NCBI GenBank assembly: GCA_021845925.1
Contig: JAJZUW010000005.1
Span: 128,232 to 192,231, forward strand
Direction of reading: 5' to 3'
Length of the DNA stretch: 64,000 bases
From: Pseudomonadota bacterium
Lineage (GTDB): Bacteria; Pseudomonadota; Gammaproteobacteria; Burkholderiales; Sulfuriferulaceae
Positions 5,861-63,561 of the stretch are shown here, piece after piece. Positions within the stretch are counted from its first letter, which is position 1, and each line of letters opens with the position of its first letter. The position numbers and the translations under genes are program-made. The notes under the pieces are model-generated. The model did no database searches. It worked only from the letters and a program-made list of their open reading frames with translations, and was not told the DNA's origin.

Positions 5861-6705
5861 AAGCCCTGTTCAACCGCCTGCGCGGCGTCGAGCGCGATAT
5901 CATCCAGGCTCCGGTGGAAGACGAAGCGGCAGCCCCGTTCTATGAGCCCCAAGGCAACGAAATTGCCATTTTTGAGGCAGCCTGGCGCAAGCGCTTGCCG
6001 GTGATGCTCAAGGGGCCAACCGGTTGTGGCAAAACCCGCTTTCTGGAATACATGGCCTGGCGACTCAAACGGCCCCTGGTCACGGTTTCCTGTCACGAGG
6101 ACCTGACCAGTTCCGATCTGGTTGGACGTTTCCTGCTGGAAGGCGACCAGACAGTCTGGCAGGATGGTCCGCTGACCAAGGCAGTCAAGGCTGGCGCGAT
6201 CTGCTATCTGGACGAAATTGTCGAAGCGCGTACCGACAGCACCGTGATCATCCATCCGTTGACCGATCACCGTCGCCAGCTTCCGCTGGAGAAAAAGGGC
6301 CAGGAAATCGAAGCGCATGAGGATTTCATGCTGGTGATTTCCTACAACCCTGGTTATCAGACCGTGCTGAAAGATCTCAAGCCTTCCACCAAGCAGCGGT
6401 TTGTCGGCATCCATTTCAACTATCCGAAACCGGAAGTGGAAGAACGCATCATTGCAGCCGAGGCCGGCGGTCTTACACCGGACCAGGTGGCCCGACTGGT
6501 GGCTGTTGGTCAGCGTGCCAGGGTGCTGAAGGACCATGGGCTGGAAGAAGCGACGTCAACCCGTGCGCTGGTGTATGCCGCCAATCTGATTGCGGCCGGT
6601 CTGCCACCGGTTGATGCGTGTCAGGCTGCCCTGGTGAGTCCGGTCACCGATGACCCGGAACTGGCGGAAGCACTGACTGAAATCGTACGGGCGCATTTTG
6701 GCTGA
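5857..6705 (+). CDS. cbbQ: CbbQ-type MoxR AAA+ ATPase
   Basis: A 282-residue MoxR-class AAA+ ATPase of the CbbQ/NirQ/NorQ group. Walker A is GPTGCGKT at residues 53-60, followed by the family-typical [20 protein letters not shown]. Walker B is [12 protein letters not shown] near residues 110-120. The blocks [17 protein letters not shown] and [20 protein letters not shown] are diagnostic. With CbbO such proteins remodel RuBisCO or other metalloenzymes, removing inhibitors or helping insert metal. It overlaps its upstream partner by 4 bases and the CbbO-like gene by 8. The sequence looks nearer to CbbQ than to NorQ, but no RuBisCO is nearby, so its client is unknown. Confidence 0.88.
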
Positions 6706-42683: not shown

Positions 42684-43112
42684 TCAGGCTTTCAGCTGCA
42701 GAATGACCTGGGTGGTGTTGCCGGCAATGGCATCGGCCAGCGTGTATCGGTTGAGTTCGGCATAAAAGGTACTGGAAGCCCTGTTCAGCAGGGCTTTGAG
42801 CGTACAGCTCCCTTGCAGGACGCAGGGCGGTACGCCGCATTCAATGAGGTTATCCGTCCGTTCCAGCGTGCGCACGACATCGCCCAGCCGGTAGGTTTCG
42901 GGAAGGCGGGCAAGCCGGATACCCCCACCTTTGCCGCGAATGGTTTCCAGCCAGCCCTGCTGACCCATGAACTGGACGACTTTGGTCATGTGATTCAGCG
43001 CGACATCAAATTTGGCGGTGATTTCGCCGATGGTTTTTGTTTCGTCCGGCTGCGTGGCACTGAGAAACATCAGCACACGCAGGCCGAGATCGGTAAAACG
43101 GGTCAGTTGCAT
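42684..43112 (-). CDS. nsrR: NsrR-type Rrf2 family nitric-oxide-sensing repressor
   Basis: A 142-residue Rrf2 regulator. The three cluster cysteines lie at residues 92, 97 and 103 ([13 protein letters not shown]), and Asp8 (FTDLG) is also present; both match iron-sulfur-binding NsrR. The N-terminal winged helix is normal ([18 protein letters not shown]). NsrR loses DNA binding when nitric oxide attacks its cluster. It sits 59 bases downstream of hmp on the same strand, and an NsrR-like operator lies before hmp. Confidence 0.92.
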
Positions 43113-43171: not shown

Positions 43172-44386
43172 TCAGGCCGTCACGCCTCCCGAACCGAATG
43201 CCTCTGCGTGAATCCGGCTGTCTGCAATGCCGTGTTTGCGCAGGGCGTTGATTTGTGCCGTCATGAATGCTGACGGGCCACAAACGTAATAATCAGCATT
43301 CTTCGGCAAGAAGTGGCTTCCGGTCAAGCCTGACAGTTCAAGACGGCCGACTGCATGCGGGCGTGATGGAATGCGGTCATGTACCGCCTCATGAACAATC
43401 CATGCCTGTCCATCGGCGATCTGATCCATCAGATGGTCCACCCGGTCGCCAAATGCCTGCACCCCGGCATCGCGGCTGGCGTGCAGAAAACGCACCGGTC
43501 GGTCGGGATTCGTGCTGGCCAGATGTTCCAGCATGGACATCATGGGCGTGATGCCGACGCCACCGCTGATCAGCACCACCGGTTCCTGGCTGTTTTCGTT
43601 GAGATAGAAATCACCCGCAGGTGGGGCGATTTCGAGCAGGTCGCCTTCGTTGACACGGTCATGCAGATGATTGGATACCATGCCCGCCGGTTGTTCGGTA
43701 CGGGCAGATTCCCGTTTGACCGATATGCGGAAATGACCTTTGCCGGGTGCATCCGACAGGCTGTATTGACGCGGTTGCCGATAACCCAGTTCAGGGACGA
43801 TCACACGTACCGAAATGTACTGCCCTGGTTTGTACAATGGCACTGGACCGCCATCGGCGGGAACCATCTGAAACGAGGTGATTTCTTCGCTTTCGCGTAT
43901 TTTGCGCTCGACGCGAAACGTGCGCCATCCTGTCCATCCGCCTGTGCTGTCGATGGCCAGGTCATACATTTTTTGTTCCATGTCTGCCAGCAATGCTGCC
44001 AGATCACCGTAGGCGACTGCCCACGCGTCAACCAGTTCATCGCTGGCGGCGCTGCCCAGAACTTCGCGGATGGATGCCAGCAAGTGTTTGCCGACAATGG
44101 CATAGTGTTCCTTGCGGATGCCCAGACTGACGTGCTTGGCGGCAATGCGTTCCAGTACCGGCATCAGGACTGATGGGTCGTCGATATGATCGGCATAGGC
44201 GGTTACCGCCATGGCAAGGGCCTGCTGTTGTCCGCCATTGCGCTGGTGAGCCTGGTTGAAGTATTCGCGCAGTTCCGGGTTGTGCGTAAACATGCGGGCA
44301 TAGAAATGGCTGGTCAGTGTGACGCCATGTTCTTTCAGGACGGGAGCAGTGGCTTTGACAAGTTGGCGCTGGTTTTCAGAGAGCAT
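43172..44386 (-). CDS. hmp: Flavohemoglobin (nitric oxide dioxygenase)
   Basis: A 404-residue fusion of a globin (about 1-140) to a ferredoxin-NADP reductase-like module. The heme proximal ligand is His85 in AAKHVSLGIRKEHYAIVGKH; Tyr29 and Gln53 complete the distal pocket. The FAD motif is RQYSLSDAP and the NAD site GGVGITPMMSMLEHLA. It oxidises nitric oxide to nitrate using NAD(P)H and O2. An operator for NsrR overlaps its probable -10 element, and nsrR follows it. Confidence 0.96.
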   Translation of the reverse strand: MLSENQRQLVKATAPVLKEHGVTLTSHFYARMFTHNPELREYFNQAHQRNGGQQQALAMAVTAYADHIDDPSVLMPVLERIAAKHVSLGIRKEHYAIVGKHLLASIREVLGSAASDELVDAWAVAYGDLAALLADMEQKMYDLAIDSTGGWTGWRTFRVERKIRESEEITSFQMVPADGGPVPLYKPGQYISVRVIVPELGYRQPRQYSLSDAPGKGHFRISVKRESARTEQPAGMVSNHLHDRVNEGDLLEIAPPAGDFYLNENSQEPVVLISGGVGITPMMSMLEHLASTNPDRPVRFLHASRDAGVQAFGDRVDHLMDQIADGQAWIVHEAVHDRIPSRPHAVGRLELSGLTGSHFLPKNADYYVCGPSAFMTAQINALRKHGIADSRIHAEAFGSGGVTA

Positions 44387-44404: not shown

Positions 44405-44427
44405 AAGATGCATTTTGCATGCATATT
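44405..44427. promoter_or_regulatory. NsrR operator overlapping the hmp promoter
   Basis: The 23-base site AAGATGCATTTTGCATGCATATT is an inverted repeat (AAGATGCAT / ATGCATATT, one mismatch) and matches the published NsrR consensus of two AAGATGCAT-like half sites. A TATAAT on the minus strand (44430-44425) overlaps it, about 40 bases before the hmp start, so a bound NsrR would block the polymerase. NsrR itself is encoded just downstream of hmp. Confidence 0.8.
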
Positions 44428-55341: not shown

Positions 55342-56550
55342 TCAGCTTTTGGCCACCATCAGGCCCGGCTGGTAGCCTTTCACGAAGGCGGTGAATGTGT
55401 CCAGGTCCATCGGTCTGGCAATGAAATAACCCTGGGCAATATCGCAGCCAAGCCTGCGCAGCATGTCCCAGTCCTGCCGGGTTTCAACACCCTCGCCAAC
55501 GCTTTTGACATTGAGTTTGCGCGCCATGTCGATGCTGGATTCAACAATCACCCGCAACGAACTGTTTTCAGAAAAATCCTGCACAAACGACTGGTCGATT
55601 TTCAGTTCGCTGAATGCAATGCGGGCGAGTTGCTGAAGGTTGGAAGAACCAGTACCGTAATCGTCGATGGACAGCGGAAAACCATGCATGCAAAGCCGCG
55701 CCAGATTTTCCAGAGCAGGGGCAACGTCTGTCATGGCCGCCGATTCGGTGATCTCCAGAATGAGATAGCGAGGATCCAGTCCTGACCGACGCACGATTTG
55801 CATCACATGATCGGCCAGCGATGTGTCATCAAGAGACACCAGTGACAGGTTGACTGATACCGGCATGACATGTCCATGGTCATGACATCGCCGGCAGGCC
55901 ATTGCCGCCTTGTCCAGAATCTGGAACGTGAGTTTGTCGATGTTGCCGCTGCTTTCTAGCAGAGGGATGAAAGCTGCTGGTCCGGTCACTCCATGATGCG
56001 GATGTTTCCACCGGGCCAGGGCCTCGGCACCAACCAGACTGCCGGTGCGCAGATCAACTTTAGGCTGAAAATAGGGCTCGAACTGATCGGCATCGACAGC
56101 CGCAAGGATGTCTTCCAGGCTGAAGGTCGAGTCAGCCGCAGACTGTTGCCGGACGGGCGCAGGACCATGTTTCGACAGCAAGGATTTCAGATTGACCGGA
56201 TTGACCGGCTTTTCAATGGTGCCGAGCAGATGGATGCCATACAGACGGGTCATCCTGCTGATGGAGGAGAGCAGTTTGCTGTCCAGGGCACTGGTCAGAA
56301 TCACCGGAATGGTTAGTTTTTCTTCGCCAAGATGACGCAAAAATTCCATGCCATCCATTTCCGGCATGTCGAGATCGCACAGGGCGATATTCGGTCTTGG
56401 GGTGGCTCTGTGTATTTCATCGAGGGCCTGCTTGCCATTGCTTGCCTCGACAATACTGGCCACGCCAAGAGATGCCAGCATCCGGACCATGATTTTTCGC
56501 TGGAAGTCATCGTCCTCAATCACGAGAACGTGGAGATCAGCGATATTCAT
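55342..56550 (-). CDS. Response regulator with EAL (c-di-GMP phosphodiesterase) output
   Basis: A 402-residue protein with a receiver domain (about 1-125) whose phospho-acceptor is Asp59 in ALCDLDMPEMDGMEFLR, and an EAL domain (about 150-400). The EAL signature GAEALARWKHPHHG is near residue 176, and ILEITESAAMTDV, IDDYGTGSSNLQQLARIAF and SVGEGVETRQDWDM are intact, so it should hydrolyse c-di-GMP. It overlaps the hybrid kinase gene by 4 bases (ATGA), indicating a dedicated phosphorelay. Confidence 0.92.
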   Translation of the reverse strand: MNIADLHVLVIEDDDFQRKIMVRMLASLGVASIVEASNGKQALDEIHRATPRPNIALCDLDMPEMDGMEFLRHLGEEKLTIPVILTSALDSKLLSSISRMTRLYGIHLLGTIEKPVNPVNLKSLLSKHGPAPVRQQSAADSTFSLEDILAAVDADQFEPYFQPKVDLRTGSLVGAEALARWKHPHHGVTGPAAFIPLLESSGNIDKLTFQILDKAAMACRRCHDHGHVMPVSVNLSLVSLDDTSLADHVMQIVRRSGLDPRYLILEITESAAMTDVAPALENLARLCMHGFPLSIDDYGTGSSNLQQLARIAFSELKIDQSFVQDFSENSSLRVIVESSIDMARKLNVKSVGEGVETRQDWDMLRRLGCDIAQGYFIARPMDLDTFTAFVKGYQPGLMVAKS

Positions 56551-59500
56551 TCGATATTCCTCTCAATAAAGGTGTCAAGTGATGCCAAGGCGGTGTCAAG
56601 TTCGATTCTGGCTGCGCGGGCGCCGTCAGGCTGGTTTGCCCGGCCGGCTTTTTCAATCTGTTCACATGTCTCGGCCAGTCTTCCGGCACCTACCATGCGG
56701 GCCGAACCCTTCATGCGGTGCGCTGTGCTGGCGATGCTGGCCAGGTTGCCGGTTTCGAGTGACTGATCCAGTTCGATCAGGTCGGCACGGATGTGCTGCA
56801 TGAACTCGCGCAACAGTCTGGTCTGGCCTGCCTGGTCTTCAATGATGCTGGACAATACCTGCATGTCGACCGGGACATCCTTTCCGGACGGCACATTCAG
56901 CCATCTGGACACTGCTTTTTTCAGTTGTGTCATGTCACAGGGTTTGACCAGGAGATCATTCATGCCAGCATTGTGGCAACGATTGGCCTCTTCGGCCAGC
57001 GCATTGGCCGTCCAGGCAATAATGGGGATCGGCGTGGCATGGCCTGTTTCGGATTCACGTATTTTGCGCGCCAGTTCGTAACCATCCATTTCAGGCATGT
57101 GGCAATCCGTGATGACCAGGTCGTAGTGTCCGGTTTGCCATTTGTTCAGGGCCGTGAGTCCATTATCGGCAGTCTCTGCCTGCAGTCCGAGCAGTTTGAG
57201 CTGGCGGGCGAGCAGTTCGCGGTTGATCGGATGGTCATCGACAGCCAGAACCATCGGCGCCCGGGATGGATCCTGAAACAGAGGTTCCACCTGCCGTTGC
57301 CGCGAATCAGTCTGCATGACCATGGGCTCTTCGCCGGGCAGACCGGAAATCGGCAATGTCAGGACGACGCTGAATGTCGAGCCATGGCCTGGGTCGCTGT
57401 GCAGTTCAATCTGGCCATCCATCATTTCGGAAAGCCGCTTGCAGATGGCAAGTCCAAGTCCCGTGCCACCATACATCCGTTCTGTATCCAGACTTTCCTG
57501 CCGATAGCGCTGGAACAGTTGATCCTGCACTTCCGCCGGAATGCCCATCCCGGTGTCCCTGACCGAAAACCGGATGCGGTCGCCACTGTCGAGTTCGTCG
57601 AGCAGTTCTGCGCGCACTTCGATTTCGCCGGCCGACGTGAATTTGATGGCATTGCTGACAAAATTGTTCAGAATCTGTGACAAGCGCAGTGAATCCACCA
57701 GATAGGCAGAATGCAGTCGCGGGTCGGTGTGTTGCCAGAGCATCAGCGATCGGGTGCTGGCCAGACGCGAGTAGGTGTTGACTACTTCTTTTAGCAGCGA
57801 TTCGATCGTGGTTGGCCGCGGATCGAGCTTTAGTTTGCCTTCCTCGATTTTTGACCAGTCCAGAATGTCACTGACGATTCGCAGCAGGCGGCGGCCGGAC
57901 TCCCAGGCGGTATCCAGCGTTTCGTGCTGATCCCGATCCAGGACTGTCAGGGATAGCAGTTCCAGCATGCCCAGCATGCCAGTCAGAGGCGTGCGGATTT
58001 CATGGCTCATGGTGGCCAGGAACGAGCTTTTGGCGCGATTGGCAAGATCGGCCTGCTCTTTGGCAGTCATCAGCTTGCGTGTCAGTTCGCGATATTCAGT
58101 CATGTCGCGCGCGGTGGCATACATGAACCCCTTTTCGTCCGGGATGGATTTCCAGGACAGAATACGCCAGCGACCATTTTTGTGCCTGAACCGGTTTTCA
58201 AATTCTGAAAAATACTGGTTGCCGGCCAGCATTTTTTCGATACCCAAGCGTGTGTGCTCCTGATCGTCTGGATGTATGAAATCGATAAACCGGCGACCTG
58301 TCAGTTCTTCCGGAGTCCAGCCCAGGGAACTCGTAAATGCAGGGTTGACCCGTTTGAAGCAGCCATTACTGTCGGTAATGCACAGCATGTCCAACGGCAG
58401 TGAAAAAAACCGGTTGAACAGATTGTCTGCCTCCTTGCGGGCCGTGATGTCGCGGATCAGTCCGACAAAATGCAGCGAATCGCCCAGCGACATCTCGGTA
58501 ATGGACAATTCAATGGGAAAGCGGGACTGATCCTTGCGCAGGCCCTCGAGTTCGATTGTCTGTCCAATCAGGTGTGGTTCCAGTGTGCTGGTGTAGTGGG
58601 CGAGATACTCATCATGGTGACTGCGATGCGGCTCTGGCATCAGCATGCTGACGTTTTGTCCGGTCATGACGCTGGCAGCATGACCAAAAATCCGTTCTGC
58701 GGCGGGATTGACCATTTCGATGGCGCCATGGTCATTGATGGTAACGATGCCGTCCATGACGGCATCCAGAACCGTGCGCAGACGTGTTGCACTGTCCTGT
58801 AATGCCTGCCGTGCGGCCTGTTCCTGGCTGATATCCCTGAAAATCAGCACGGTACCCGTGATATTGCCATTGCGATCGCGAATGGGGGCGTAGTTGTCGG
58901 CAACGGGTGTTCTGGTACCGTCACGGGCTACCAGCAGGCTGTCATTGGCCAGGCCGTCGGCAATGTTGTCCGACATCACCGAGGATATCGGCAAAGCGCG
59001 CGGTTCGCCAGTCTGCTGGCTAACAATGCGGAACACCTGACTGATCGGTTGGCCAATCGCATCGGCGTTCTGCCATCCGGTCAGTTTTTCGGCAACCCTG
59101 TTCAGTCTGGTGATGCGCCCTTCGGCATCGGTTGCCATGACGCCATCGGCAATCGAGTCCAGCGTGATGGCCAGGTTTTCTTCGCTGTCACGCCAATGTT
59201 CGCTGGTTTCGGCAGCCATACGCGATGCTCGCTGCAAACGCCAGTTGACCAGGCTGAACAGGCCACCCATGCAACAGAATATCAGGATGGATACCACCGA
59301 AAATGGCGATTTGCCGGTTAACGTCATTTCTGGCGGGATAAAGAACCAGGCCACCAGTCCTGCTGAAACCAGTGTGGCAATCAGCCCGGCAACCAGTCCA
59401 CCAAGCCAGGCGCTTAAAAAAACCGTTGGCAGAAACAGCAACCATGCATAGGGCTCGATGCTGGACCAGAAGGTCCATTGAACAGCAAAGATGATCCATG

Positions 59501-59552
59501 GCAACAGCAGGGCCAGAATGATACGTAGCGGTGATGGGGTGCTCGCTTTCAT
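56547..59552 (-). CDS. Hybrid sensor histidine kinase with PAS domains, receiver and HPt
   Basis: A 1001-residue membrane sensor kinase. An N-terminal four-helix block resembling the KdpD-type DUF4118 module (about 10-110) is followed by three PAS domains (about 125-500). The kinase H-box is [20 protein letters not shown] near His515. A receiver (about 760-880) has [20 protein letters not shown], and a C-terminal HPt domain carries [16 protein letters not shown] near residue 944. Signal thus passes His to Asp to His to the partner REC-EAL protein. What it senses is unknown. Two palindromes lie upstream. Confidence 0.92.
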
Positions 59553-59620: not shown

Positions 59621-59640
59621 CACTGTCAATGTTGACAGTG
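59621..59640. promoter_or_regulatory. 20-bp perfect palindrome upstream of the hybrid kinase
   Basis: CACTGTCAA-TG-TTGACAGTG, nine-base arms with a two-base spacer, about 70 bases before the kinase start at 59552. It is probably an operator; the orientation GTCAA..TTGAC is the reverse of an Fnr/Dnr site (TTGAC..GTCAA), so it is not assigned to that family. Confidence 0.5.
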
Positions 59641-59706: not shown

Positions 59707-59755
59707 TTGCCAAGGCCAAAACATGCATAATTTATGCATGTTTTGGCCTTGGCAA
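59707..59755. repeat. 49-bp perfect palindrome
   Basis: Two 24-base arms (left 59707-59730, right 59732-59755) around a single T make an exact inverted repeat with no mismatch. The centre is ATGCAT-AATTT-ATGCAT. It lies 58 bases after the stop of the DWSF gene and about 155 bases before the kinase start, both on the minus strand. It could act as a hairpin terminator for the first, an operator, or a cruciform. No T tract follows on either strand. Confidence 0.8.
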
Positions 59756-59813: not shown

Positions 59814-60158
59814 TTAGCGCTTGATGTAGGCAGGGCAGGTTGGATCGTCAAAACTCCAGTCGGCACAGGCGGGGCCGGACTGGCTGGTGCGAGTAATCCG
59901 GTTGGCAGAGGCCAACCGGCTGGACGGAGAAATGTAAGCCGCACAGTGCGGATCATTGAAGCTCCAGTCGGAGCACTGAGCCGCTTGCGGAGCGCCGGGC
60001 GCAGCGCCGGATGCGGCCTGGTGTGGAGCGATATAGGCAGGGCAGTGCGGACTGTTGAAACTCCAGTCCGAACAGGACAAGTCTTTGCCAAAGCTGGTTT
60101 GGGAGGCAAGCAGGCCAAAGCCGATGAGTGCCATGATTTTTGCGAGATGAGGTTTCAT
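59814..60158 (-). CDS. Small secreted protein with three DWSF repeats
   Basis: A 114-residue protein that I do not recognise. The ATG at 60158 has an AAAGGA ribosome-binding site nearby and gives a signal peptide (KIMALIGFGLLASQTSFG) up to about residue 24. The mature part holds three copies of a motif C-x-DWSF-x2-P-x-C-x-AYI, at residues 29-43, 62-76 and 98-112, joined by Ala/Gln/Ser/Pro linkers. The paired Cys could form a disulfide or bind metal. A sigma-54-type promoter lies before it, and the divergent gene is a sigma-54-dependent activator. A role tied to the norQD genes is possible. Confidence 0.75.
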   Translation of the reverse strand: MKPHLAKIMALIGFGLLASQTSFGKDLSCSDWSFNSPHCPAYIAPHQAASGAAPGAPQAAQCSDWSFNDPHCAAYISPSSRLASANRITRTSQSGPACADWSFDDPTCPAYIKR

Positions 60159-60351: not shown

Positions 60352-61755
60352 ATGATGATCAGCGATGTGATGCTGGACCGGTTTGTCGATAGTCTCGAAG
60401 AAGGCGTTCTTTTTCTGGACCGTAAACGATTCGTAGTGATGGCAAACCAGGCGGCAGCGCAGATGGTCGGCTGGGACAGGGCGGCCATGATCGGCCAGCT
60501 TTGTCAGCATCTGTTTCGCGAAACGGCCTGCGGACGGGCTTGCGAACGCCGCGGTCACTGCGTTCTGGCGCCGTTTCCCGGTGACGATAGCCACGTGAGG
60601 GACCTGTTGCTGGTGCGTCCGGACGGCAGTTCGGTCAATCTGCGCATGTGGGCCATGCTGCTACCTTCCGCTGGAGGGAATCATTTCCACAGCGCTATCA
60701 TTCTGCGTGATCGATCGCATGAAGTCGAACTGGAAGAATATGCCGCCGAGCGTCTGCAGTTTGGTGGAATCGTCGGTCACAGTCCGGTCATGCAGAAACT
60801 GTATAACCAGATCGTACGGGCGGCCAAAAGCGATGCAAGTGTTCTAATCACCGGTGAAAGCGGAACAGGCAAGGAAATGGTGGCCAGAGCGTTGCACGAG
60901 CACTCGAACCGTAGCAAGGGGCCCTATGTTCCGGTGCATTGCGCCGCTCTGCCGGAACATTTGCTCGAATCTGAGTTGTTCGGTTATGCTAAGGGTGCCT
61001 TTTCCGGCGCCCTGTCCGCGCGCATCGGCCGGTTTGAAGCCGCTGACGGCGGCACCATGCTGCTCGACGAAATCGGCGAGATTCCACTGGCCACTCAGGT
61101 CAAGCTCCTACGTGTACTGCAGGAAAGGGAAATTGTCCGGTTGGGTGAAAACCATCCTCGCCCAGTCGATGTGCGGGTGATCGCCGCCACGCACCGCAAT
61201 CTGGTCGAAATGGTGCGGCGTGGCGAATTCCGCGAAGACCTGTATTACCGGTTGTGCGTGTTGCCGATGCAGGTTCCGGCTCTGCGCGAACGGAAAGAGG
61301 ACATTTCGTTGATCGCCACCCGTTTACTGAACAATCTAGCCGACAAGTACGGTCGCAGCCAGATGGAGATCGCACGTGAAACGCTGGCGATACTTGAGCG
61401 GCACAACTGGCCAGGTAATGTCAGGCAACTGTTCAATGCACTGGAATATGCTCTGGTGAATTCGGATGGTCGGGAAATTCTGCTCGGGCACCTGCCGCCG
61501 GACATCCAACAGGCTGCCCAGTCAATCGGAGCTGGTGCAGGCGTCTTGTCTTCGCCGATGCGGTCGTATTACCGGCCGGCCGGCCCGGCGCAGCACGAAA
61601 TGGCGCGAATTGAACAGGTGCTGGCTGAGACGGCTGGCAACAAGGCCGAAGCGGCGCGCAGACTGGGCATGTCGCGCACCAGTCTGTGGAAGCGGCTGAA
61701 AGGCTGGCGTGCCGCCGAGTGCCGCGACGTGGACGGCACGCGATCAGTACTGTGA
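60352..61755 (+). CDS. Sigma-54-dependent PAS-AAA+-Fis regulator
   Basis: A 467-residue NtrC-type activator. The ATG at 60352 follows GGAGG at 60341-60345. A PAS domain (about 1-115) contains four Cys (C51, C60, C64, C70, in ETACGRACERRGHC). The AAA+ core has GESGTGKEM (Walker A) near residue 168 and a GAFSGA loop near 215 (the family norm is GAFTGA). The C-terminal Fis HTH ends RRLGMSRTSLWKRLKG. No receiver or GAF domain, so it is not NorR. Its target is probably the divergent DWSF gene and perhaps nor genes. It overlaps the norD stop by 12 bases in convergent orientation. Confidence 0.87.
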   Translation: MMISDVMLDRFVDSLEEGVLFLDRKRFVVMANQAAAQMVGWDRAAMIGQLCQHLFRETACGRACERRGHCVLAPFPGDDSHVRDLLLVRPDGSSVNLRMWAMLLPSAGGNHFHSAIILRDRSHEVELEEYAAERLQFGGIVGHSPVMQKLYNQIVRAAKSDASVLITGESGTGKEMVARALHEHSNRSKGPYVPVHCAALPEHLLESELFGYAKGAFSGALSARIGRFEAADGGTMLLDEIGEIPLATQVKLLRVLQEREIVRLGENHPRPVDVRVIAATHRNLVEMVRRGEFREDLYYRLCVLPMQVPALRERKEDISLIATRLLNNLADKYGRSQMEIARETLAILERHNWPGNVRQLFNALEYALVNSDGREILLGHLPPDIQQAAQSIGAGAGVLSSPMRSYYRPAGPAQHEMARIEQVLAETAGNKAEAARRLGMSRTSLWKRLKGWRAAECRDVDGTRSVL

Positions 61756-63561
61756 GCGGGTCAGCTGCCCATACAGGCGGGTCAGTCTTTGCGGTAGCTC
61801 GTGCGGGTGTTTCACGATGACAAAACCATGCTGTCCAAAGATGTGAGGTAGCCAGGATGCGCCTTCCTGGTCGATAGTGACGCAGAAAGGCAATAATCCC
61901 TGGCGCCGGCACTCGGTCAGCGCCATGCGCGTGTCTTCGATGCCATAACGGCCTTCGTAACGGTCATTGTCGTTCGGTTTGCCGTCGGTCAACAGAATCA
62001 GCAGTCGCTTACGAGCACGTTCATGGGCCAGAAGCTGGCTGGCGTAGCGAACGGCAGCCCCCATGCGTGTGTAATAGGCGGGCTGCATGCCGAGGATCCG
62101 CTGGCGGGTTGCGCTGCCGTAGCTTTCGTCGAAACGCTTGATTTCGCTGATGCGCACGCTTTGTCGCCCGCGCGAATTGAAGCCAATGATGGCCAGTCGG
62201 TCGCGCGTTGTCGCCAGTGATTCGGCAAACAGCAGCAGACTGTCGCGCAACACGTCCACGATGCGAGTGTGCAAGTCGAGCGAGGCTTCTGTCGAAAGGG
62301 AGAAGTCTGCTAGCAACAGGCACGACAGGTCGCGTTCCTTGCGACGCAGGTTCTGATACAGATTTTCATTTTGGCGCTGGTCGCCGGATCGGGCACGGAT
62401 GCAGGCATCCAGATCGATGCAGTTACCATCGGCCTGTCCGCGCTGGGTCTGGTGTTCCGGCAGCAAAGCGGCGAGGCGTGACCGCAGTGCCCGGTGTCCG
62501 GCGCGCAGTCGCTCTGGCAGCTCGCAGCCCTGGGTTGCCGGAGGGTGTGGTAGCTGTTGCACGGCACAGTGGTCTGGCAGCAGAATGTGGTTGCGGAAAT
62601 CCCATTCTGGCAGACGCAGCGCACCAGCGGGTAGTCCGGCGGTCTCTTCAGACGGATCGGTTTCCAGATCCATGCGCAGTTTGCGGCTGATGCGCAGGGA
62701 CGTGCGGTTGAGATGCAACATCTCCAGATCGTCGGCTGCGCGACTCAGGTCCTCATCTTGGTTTTCCTGCACTGGATGTTCGACATTGACATATTCAGTC
62801 CAGCTGAAAATCGACTCTGGCCGGGGCAGAAACAGGCCGCCGCTACGCGTGGTCTGCTCCGAGCGACGGGCCCGGCGACGCTTGTCGTCCTGTTGTTCGG
62901 CCGGTTGGCTGGACTCGTCCTGGGTTTCATCGCTGCGTTGAGAACTAGTGTTGGCGGGTAGGTCGACCTGCCGTGGCCAAAGTAGTATCGGTGGCGGCAG
63001 ACGGCCGGGCGGCAGGCAGCGGATGCTGCCTGGGTGTAATAAAGCCTGCCGCAACGCGCGTTCGATGAGCTGACTGCCGCGCGGAAGACGTTCCAGTGGG
63101 CCGCGACGTTCGAACTCTGCCTCGACCAGGTGTTGATAGATCGTGCCGATGGCCGGATAACGATCAAGCAGTGTACGTGTGCCATGCTGGCAGACGAGCA
63201 GTCCATCGGCCGGCAAGTTGTTCAGCTGGCTGGCCAGCATGGCCCACCAGCGATAGAGGTCCCGGTGCAGGGCCTTGCTGGCATAGACGTCGACATACTC
63301 CGGCAGGCAGAGCGCCCGTTCGTTCAGGGTGGCTAGCGGGATACGTTCGCCGAGACCGGCCAGTTTGCCGATGAAGCGGGATGGTCTGGTGCGTGCGAGC
63401 GAAACAGGACTGATCTTCAGGCCGTGAGGCCCGCCGAAAGCGCGGAACAAGAGGCCCGCTTCCCGCTGCATCTCGGACAGGGCGACCCGCGTCGGGCTGG
63501 GACCTTCTTCTGCCAGCCGGGTGACCAACCGGTGCCACCAGATGCCAACCTGTTCTTCCAC
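61744..63561 (-). CDS. norD: Nitric oxide reductase activation protein NorD
   Basis: A 605-residue VWA-domain protein that, with NorQ, is needed to mature nitric oxide reductase NorBC. The VWA domain (about 412-605) has the MIDAS core LLADFSLSTEASLDLH and LLILLTDGKPNDNDR. The middle part is charged with a low-complexity linker (QQDDKRRRARRSEQ). The GTG start at 63561 is 3 bases after the norQ stop. NorB and NorC would be expected beyond the right edge. Its stop overlaps the end of the sigma-54 regulator. Confidence 0.9.
   Translation of the reverse strand: MEEQVGIWWHRLVTRLAEEGPSPTRVALSEMQREAGLLFRAFGGPHGLKISPVSLARTRPSRFIGKLAGLGERIPLATLNERALCLPEYVDVYASKALHRDLYRWWAMLASQLNNLPADGLLVCQHGTRTLLDRYPAIGTIYQHLVEAEFERRGPLERLPRGSQLIERALRQALLHPGSIRCLPPGRLPPPILLWPRQVDLPANTSSQRSDETQDESSQPAEQQDDKRRRARRSEQTTRSGGLFLPRPESIFSWTEYVNVEHPVQENQDEDLSRAADDLEMLHLNRTSLRISRKLRMDLETDPSEETAGLPAGALRLPEWDFRNHILLPDHCAVQQLPHPPATQGCELPERLRAGHRALRSRLAALLPEHQTQRGQADGNCIDLDACIRARSGDQRQNENLYQNLRRKERDLSCLLLADFSLSTEASLDLHTRIVDVLRDSLLLFAESLATTRDRLAIIGFNSRGRQSVRISEIKRFDESYGSATRQRILGMQPAYYTRMGAAVRYASQLLAHERARKRLLILLTDGKPNDNDRYEGRYGIEDTRMALTECRRQGLLPFCVTIDQEGASWLPHIFGQHGFVIVKHPHELPQRLTRLYGQLTRSQY

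Follow-up and report, generated by a model that had tools for sequence, protein, structure and literature searches.

The palindrome and its neighbours

The window analysed here is a 64,000-nt stretch of a 2.34-Mb genome. Within it, we found a perfect palindrome between the gene for a small DWSF-repeat protein and a predicted two-gene operon encoding a hybrid histidine kinase and a REC-EAL response regulator (Table 1). The DWSF protein looks exported and contains three CxDWSFxxPxCxAYI-type repeats, with no match in Pfam or NCBIfam. Beyond it, an open reading frame on the plus strand (60352-61755) overlaps the 3' end of norD, which lies on the other strand, and encodes a sigma-54 activator of PAS-AAA-HTH type with a stretch rich in cysteine, ETACGRACERRGHC. 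In the stretch from the palindrome to the kinase start there is a shorter inverted repeat, CTGTCAA-N2-TTGACAG (59623-59638), a possible site for another regulator.

Table 1. Features of the palindrome locus, the hmp locus and the norC promoter region (window positions, except for the sister palindrome on C12)
Feature	Position	Strand	Remarks
49-bp perfect palindrome	59707..59755	.	24-nt arms, 1-nt centre
Left outer arm TTGCCAAGGCC	59707..59717	.	locus-specific; pairs perfectly with 59745-59755; unrelated to norC outer arm ACCGTTT
Right outer arm GGCCTTGGCAA	59745..59755	.	locus-specific
27-bp core	59718..59744	.	identical to core of norC palindrome
23-bp NsrR-type core AACATGCAT-N5-ATGCATGTT, predicted operator	59720..59742	.	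perfect ATGCAT-N5-ATGCAT
Hybrid histidine kinase (DUF4118, three PAS, HisKA, HATPase, REC, Hpt)	56547..59552	-	predicted target; start codon 154 bp from palindrome
REC-EAL response regulator, c-di-GMP phosphodiesterase type	55342..56550	-	overlaps kinase gene; same operon predicted
Small DWSF-repeat protein	59814..60158	-	upstream neighbour; ends 58 bp before palindrome
norD-like gene	61744..63561	-	distal end of norCBEFQD; sister palindrome in operon's promoter region
hmp, NO-inducible flavohaemoprotein	43172..44386	-	NF009805 above cut-off
nsrR-like Rrf2 regulator	42684..43112	-	directly downstream of hmp, same strand; best equivalog NF008240
NsrR-type site before hmp, AAGATGCATTTTGCATGCATATT	44405..44427	.	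perfect core 44408-44424; without palindromic extension
Sister palindrome, 41 bp perfect, ACCGTTTAAAACATGCATAATTTATGCATGTTTTAAACGGT	C12:195636-195676		7.7 kb away, just outside window

An inverted-repeat search of the window showed that the arms, 59707-59730 and 59732-59755, are 100% complementary, with no mismatch and 1 nt between them, bearing out the 24-base-arm palindrome described in the first-pass annotation, which had also correctly placed it beside a nor-linked region: norD is close by, and its operon runs on to norC. No other feature of this kind occurs in the window, and in a random genome of the same size (2.34 Mb) and composition about 1e-7 palindromes with 24-nt arms and a loop of 0-8 nt are expected. 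As an empirical background, we used 477 kb, about 20% of the genome (15 contigs), made up of the window, neighbouring DNA and stretches from three other contigs. In this background, the next-best perfect palindromes after this one and a sister element before norC (below) have 14-nt arms.

The position of the palindrome just after the DWSF stop codon raises the question of a 3'-end element, a hairpin that would terminate or protect the upstream transcript and whose resemblance to an NsrR site would be secondary; in E. coli, inverted repeats are indeed over-represented downstream of stop codons (PMC6060812). Neither side of the palindrome, however, carries a T-run, no terminator was called, and such a role leaves unexplained both the identical core at norC and the association of that core with nor, nsrR and hmp genes elsewhere. 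We therefore consider a 3'-end element improbable. A canonical Rho-independent terminator was rejected for want of a U-tract on either side, and a known RNA family was rejected after hairpin models gave sub-threshold chance matches only.

An NsrR-type core shared with hmp and norC

The centre of the palindrome conforms to the inverted repeat ATGyAT-N5-ATrCAT of the published NsrR consensus, gATGyAT-N5-ATrCATc (PMC1274295). Searching the whole 2.34 Mb for perfect ATGCAT-N5-ATGCAT, we found exactly three copies: before hmp, in this palindrome and before norC. Unlike these perfect matches, core sites with two mismatches are uninformative (7 in the window against 7.0 expected); the one-mismatch sites in the whole genome all lie inside long open reading frames (5/5).

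The third perfect copy (C12:195648-195664) lies 172 bp ahead of norC, with which the norCBEFQD operon opens, and forms the centre of the sister palindrome, which fell outside the DNA available to the first-pass annotation and which we regard as the key evidence. The 27-bp core common to both palindromes is identical and in the same orientation, and beyond it the 330-bp regions upstream of the kinase and norC have nothing else of significance alike. The distance from core to start codon is 165 bp for the kinase and 172 bp for norC.

A candidate regulator is encoded in the same genome. Three Rrf2-family genes are present, and the one adjoining hmp is closest to NsrR, matching NF008240 with E 1.2e-35 and a score of 122.6 bits that falls short of the curated cut-off (182), and showing a cysteine pattern that spans 13 residues. 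For the other two, IscR is the best match among named families, in one case weakly. Two of the three perfect sites clearly precede NO-related genes, hmp and norC, and the kinase/REC-EAL operon would be the target of the remaining one. The locus thus resembles described NsrR operators in its ATGCAT-N5-ATGCAT sequence, its 11-1-11 geometry, a regulon that includes hmp and nor, and the placement of nsrR beside hmp; norB has likewise been predicted to be under NsrR control in several beta-proteobacteria (PMC1274295). It differs in three respects: the perfect palindrome extends over 49 bp (41 bp at norC), compared with the usual ~23 bp; the predicted target is a kinase/REC-EAL pair; and the outermost core base is C, not G as in the consensus, so that the flanking g/c reads c/g.

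This last difference counts against an operator, and the same variant occurs at nsrR, nor and hmp loci of other species. In a pattern scan of 84,980 species genomes, AACATGCAT-N5-ATGCATGTT was found at 32 loci, at least 21 of them with genes homologous to nsrR, norC/norB or hmp of the present genome; eight Halomonas/Billgrantia records among the 32 carry the pattern upstream of norC. The canonical AAGATGCAT pattern, searched in the class, gave few sites. The core variant with C at the third position thus marks nsrR, nor and hmp loci, indicating a real NsrR-type operator signature, and the centre of the palindrome is, with high confidence from its sequence, predicted to be an NsrR operator. An NsrR-like core with the geometry of the hmp site had been proposed in the first-pass annotation together with a hairpin or cruciform; the geometry was confirmed, and the proposal gained support as far as the core is concerned, given its two perfect counterparts before the classical targets hmp and norC and its recurrence at nsrR, nor and hmp loci elsewhere. 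A hairpin or cruciform is plausible on thermodynamic grounds.

Could the core instead serve the sigma-54 activator encoded at 60352-61755 as an upstream activating site? That gene lies between the two palindromes, and 165-172 bp from a start codon is a usual distance for such a site, but the 330 bp before norC contain no GG-N10-GC and the region before the kinase only a weak one, and the core is that of NsrR and appears elsewhere at nsrR loci. With no -24/-12 element at norC, we rejected this assignment as very unlikely.

We also considered a mobile hairpin repeat or an assembly artefact. Long perfect hairpins are often mobile, and one genus mate has a family of dispersed hairpins. Here, however, the arms are single-copy within 3 mismatches and the only sister element has different arms, while both palindromes are centred exactly on an NsrR-type site and flanked by normal genes, leaving a repeat or artefact with hardly any credibility. 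A REP- or MITE-type dispersed palindromic repeat, the finding that the first-pass annotation had said would speak against an NsrR site, was likewise rejected, since several copies do not exist.

Palindromic arms beyond the core

To place the extension in context, we compared it with 68 NsrR-like sites, including hmp of this genome. At those sites the palindrome runs 0-5 pairs beyond the 23-bp core, and a mean of 3.75 of the next 12 pairs are complementary, against ~3 by chance; at the two palindromes it runs a further 13 pairs (59707-59755) and 9 pairs (norC). Because none of the 68 sites, hmp among them, shows such an extension, it is not required for NsrR recognition. The outer arms of the two loci are unrelated, yet each pairs perfectly with its own partner, and in six of the seven outer pairs common to both palindromes the bases differ on both sides and still pair. 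Between the two loci, the sequence of the extension is not conserved; its symmetry alone is. The outer arms (11 and 7 pairs), free of mismatches and G-U pairs, lie outside the predicted recognition sequence.

We think it probable that the arms arose by template switching during replication (quasipalindrome correction), which an already palindromic operator would have seeded and in which one flank would have been copied as the reverse complement of the other. Template switching has been studied at quasipalindromes in E. coli (PMC7202029) and is reported to create perfect stems in a single event (PMC8794818), and the two loci resemble the mutations described there in the perfect reverse-complement extension of an existing inverted repeat and in having locus-specific arms. 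They differ in that the event would be reconstructed here from two end states, with the ancestral sequence not seen. Counting against it, close relatives offer no unextended ancestor, and for two operators in the same genome each to have undergone its own switch would be a coincidence, one better accounted for by selection.

Such selection could have acted if the extended palindromy were itself functional jointly with NsrR, either through a cruciform driven by supercoiling or through a hairpin formed by the RNA of a leader or 3' region, for example by making NsrR access dependent on supercoiling or by stabilising or attenuating the mRNA. Both loci keep perfect palindromy despite different outer sequences, their core-to-start distances are alike, and the predicted hairpins are strong (RNA, -38.7 kcal/mol for 59707-59755 and -24.9 kcal/mol for norC; DNA, -27.7 and -19.5 kcal/mol). 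On the other hand, the extension is absent from hmp and all other NsrR-like sites examined, close relatives show no conservation of it, and the hairpin would fall outside the mRNA if transcription starts in the core. We regard a functional structure of this kind as unlikely on balance, and its more specific form, in which palindromy was selected at the nor and kinase/phosphodiesterase promoters and couples NsrR control to a cruciform or RNA hairpin, as a rather doubtful proposition; if true, it would constitute a sequence-plus-structure NO switch co-regulating NO removal and c-di-GMP breakdown. Under template switching, whatever function a hairpin or cruciform had would be secondary. The two loci form a natural pair: within a single genome, the same repressor core is flanked by two palindromic extensions, both perfect yet different, and this allows a test of whether long operator palindromes are by-products of mutation or serve as functional structures.

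No palindrome of this kind on an NsrR core is present at norC of the genus mates. The nearest genomes with norC have NorC proteins of ~71-76% identity, and their norC promoters could not be aligned with the one here. Several genus mates (L025-L030) carry FNR/DNR-like boxes before norC (TTGAT-N4-ATCAA-like, e.g. CTTGATATAAATCAAAG), and two of these also have degenerate NsrR-like sites in the norC promoter. No FNR/DNR box was found in the norC upstream region here, which suggests, from promoter sequences, that nor regulation may have switched within the genus. In one genus mate, G010, a 45-bp perfect hairpin (L026:260-304) lies ~105 bp before norC. The arm, AGCGCTGMTTWACTCCTC, recurs dozens of times across the genomes of G010 and G011, and we rejected the hairpin as a parallel case since it belongs to a dispersed repeat family there.

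Predicted NsrR control of the kinase/REC-EAL operon

Taken together, the explanation we judge best, and probably correct, is that the two palindromes contain NsrR operators for norCBEFQD and for the kinase/REC-EAL operon, with arms added by template switching. Without NO, the 23-bp core would be occupied by holo-NsrR, a dimer of the Rrf2 family carrying an Fe-S cluster, and the kinase/REC-EAL operon would be repressed; the protein would likewise bind the identical copy ahead of norCBEFQD. Destruction of the cluster by NO would then free both operators. A weak promoter-like sequence, TTGCCA-17-AATTAT, lies on the minus strand within the palindrome, so NsrR could block RNA polymerase directly. 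The 165 bp between core and kinase start codon count against steric repression, as does the weakness of this match, and no convincing promoter was found in the norC upstream region; steric repression is therefore a tentative proposal.

Relatives of the kinase/REC-EAL pair occur across the order, and orthologous operons in other genomes showed no NsrR-like sites, which counts against NsrR control. In a Rugamonas record (L040, 2171-6628), by contrast, a homologous pair is divergent from nsrR, with nirK next door and two NsrR-like boxes between nsrR and the pair. NsrR control of the pair in this genome is thus a prediction with one independent parallel.

NO is known to act on c-di-GMP through H-NOX or NosP proteins working with histidine kinases and EAL regulators. 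The locus resembles these circuits in having a hybrid kinase and a REC-EAL phosphodiesterase linked to NO genes, and differs in that the link predicted here acts on transcription by way of NsrR; the neighbouring genes examined revealed no H-NOX or NosP partner. We thus predict that NsrR directly controls a c-di-GMP phosphodiesterase operon alongside nor and hmp, which would connect NO to biofilm dispersal at the level of transcription. In a literature search on NsrR and c-di-GMP phosphodiesterases, we found no title or abstract describing such control. The Rugamonas record also contains a perfect AACATGCAT-N5-ATGCATGTT at 6606-6628, between the ends of two convergent genes and not obviously in a promoter.
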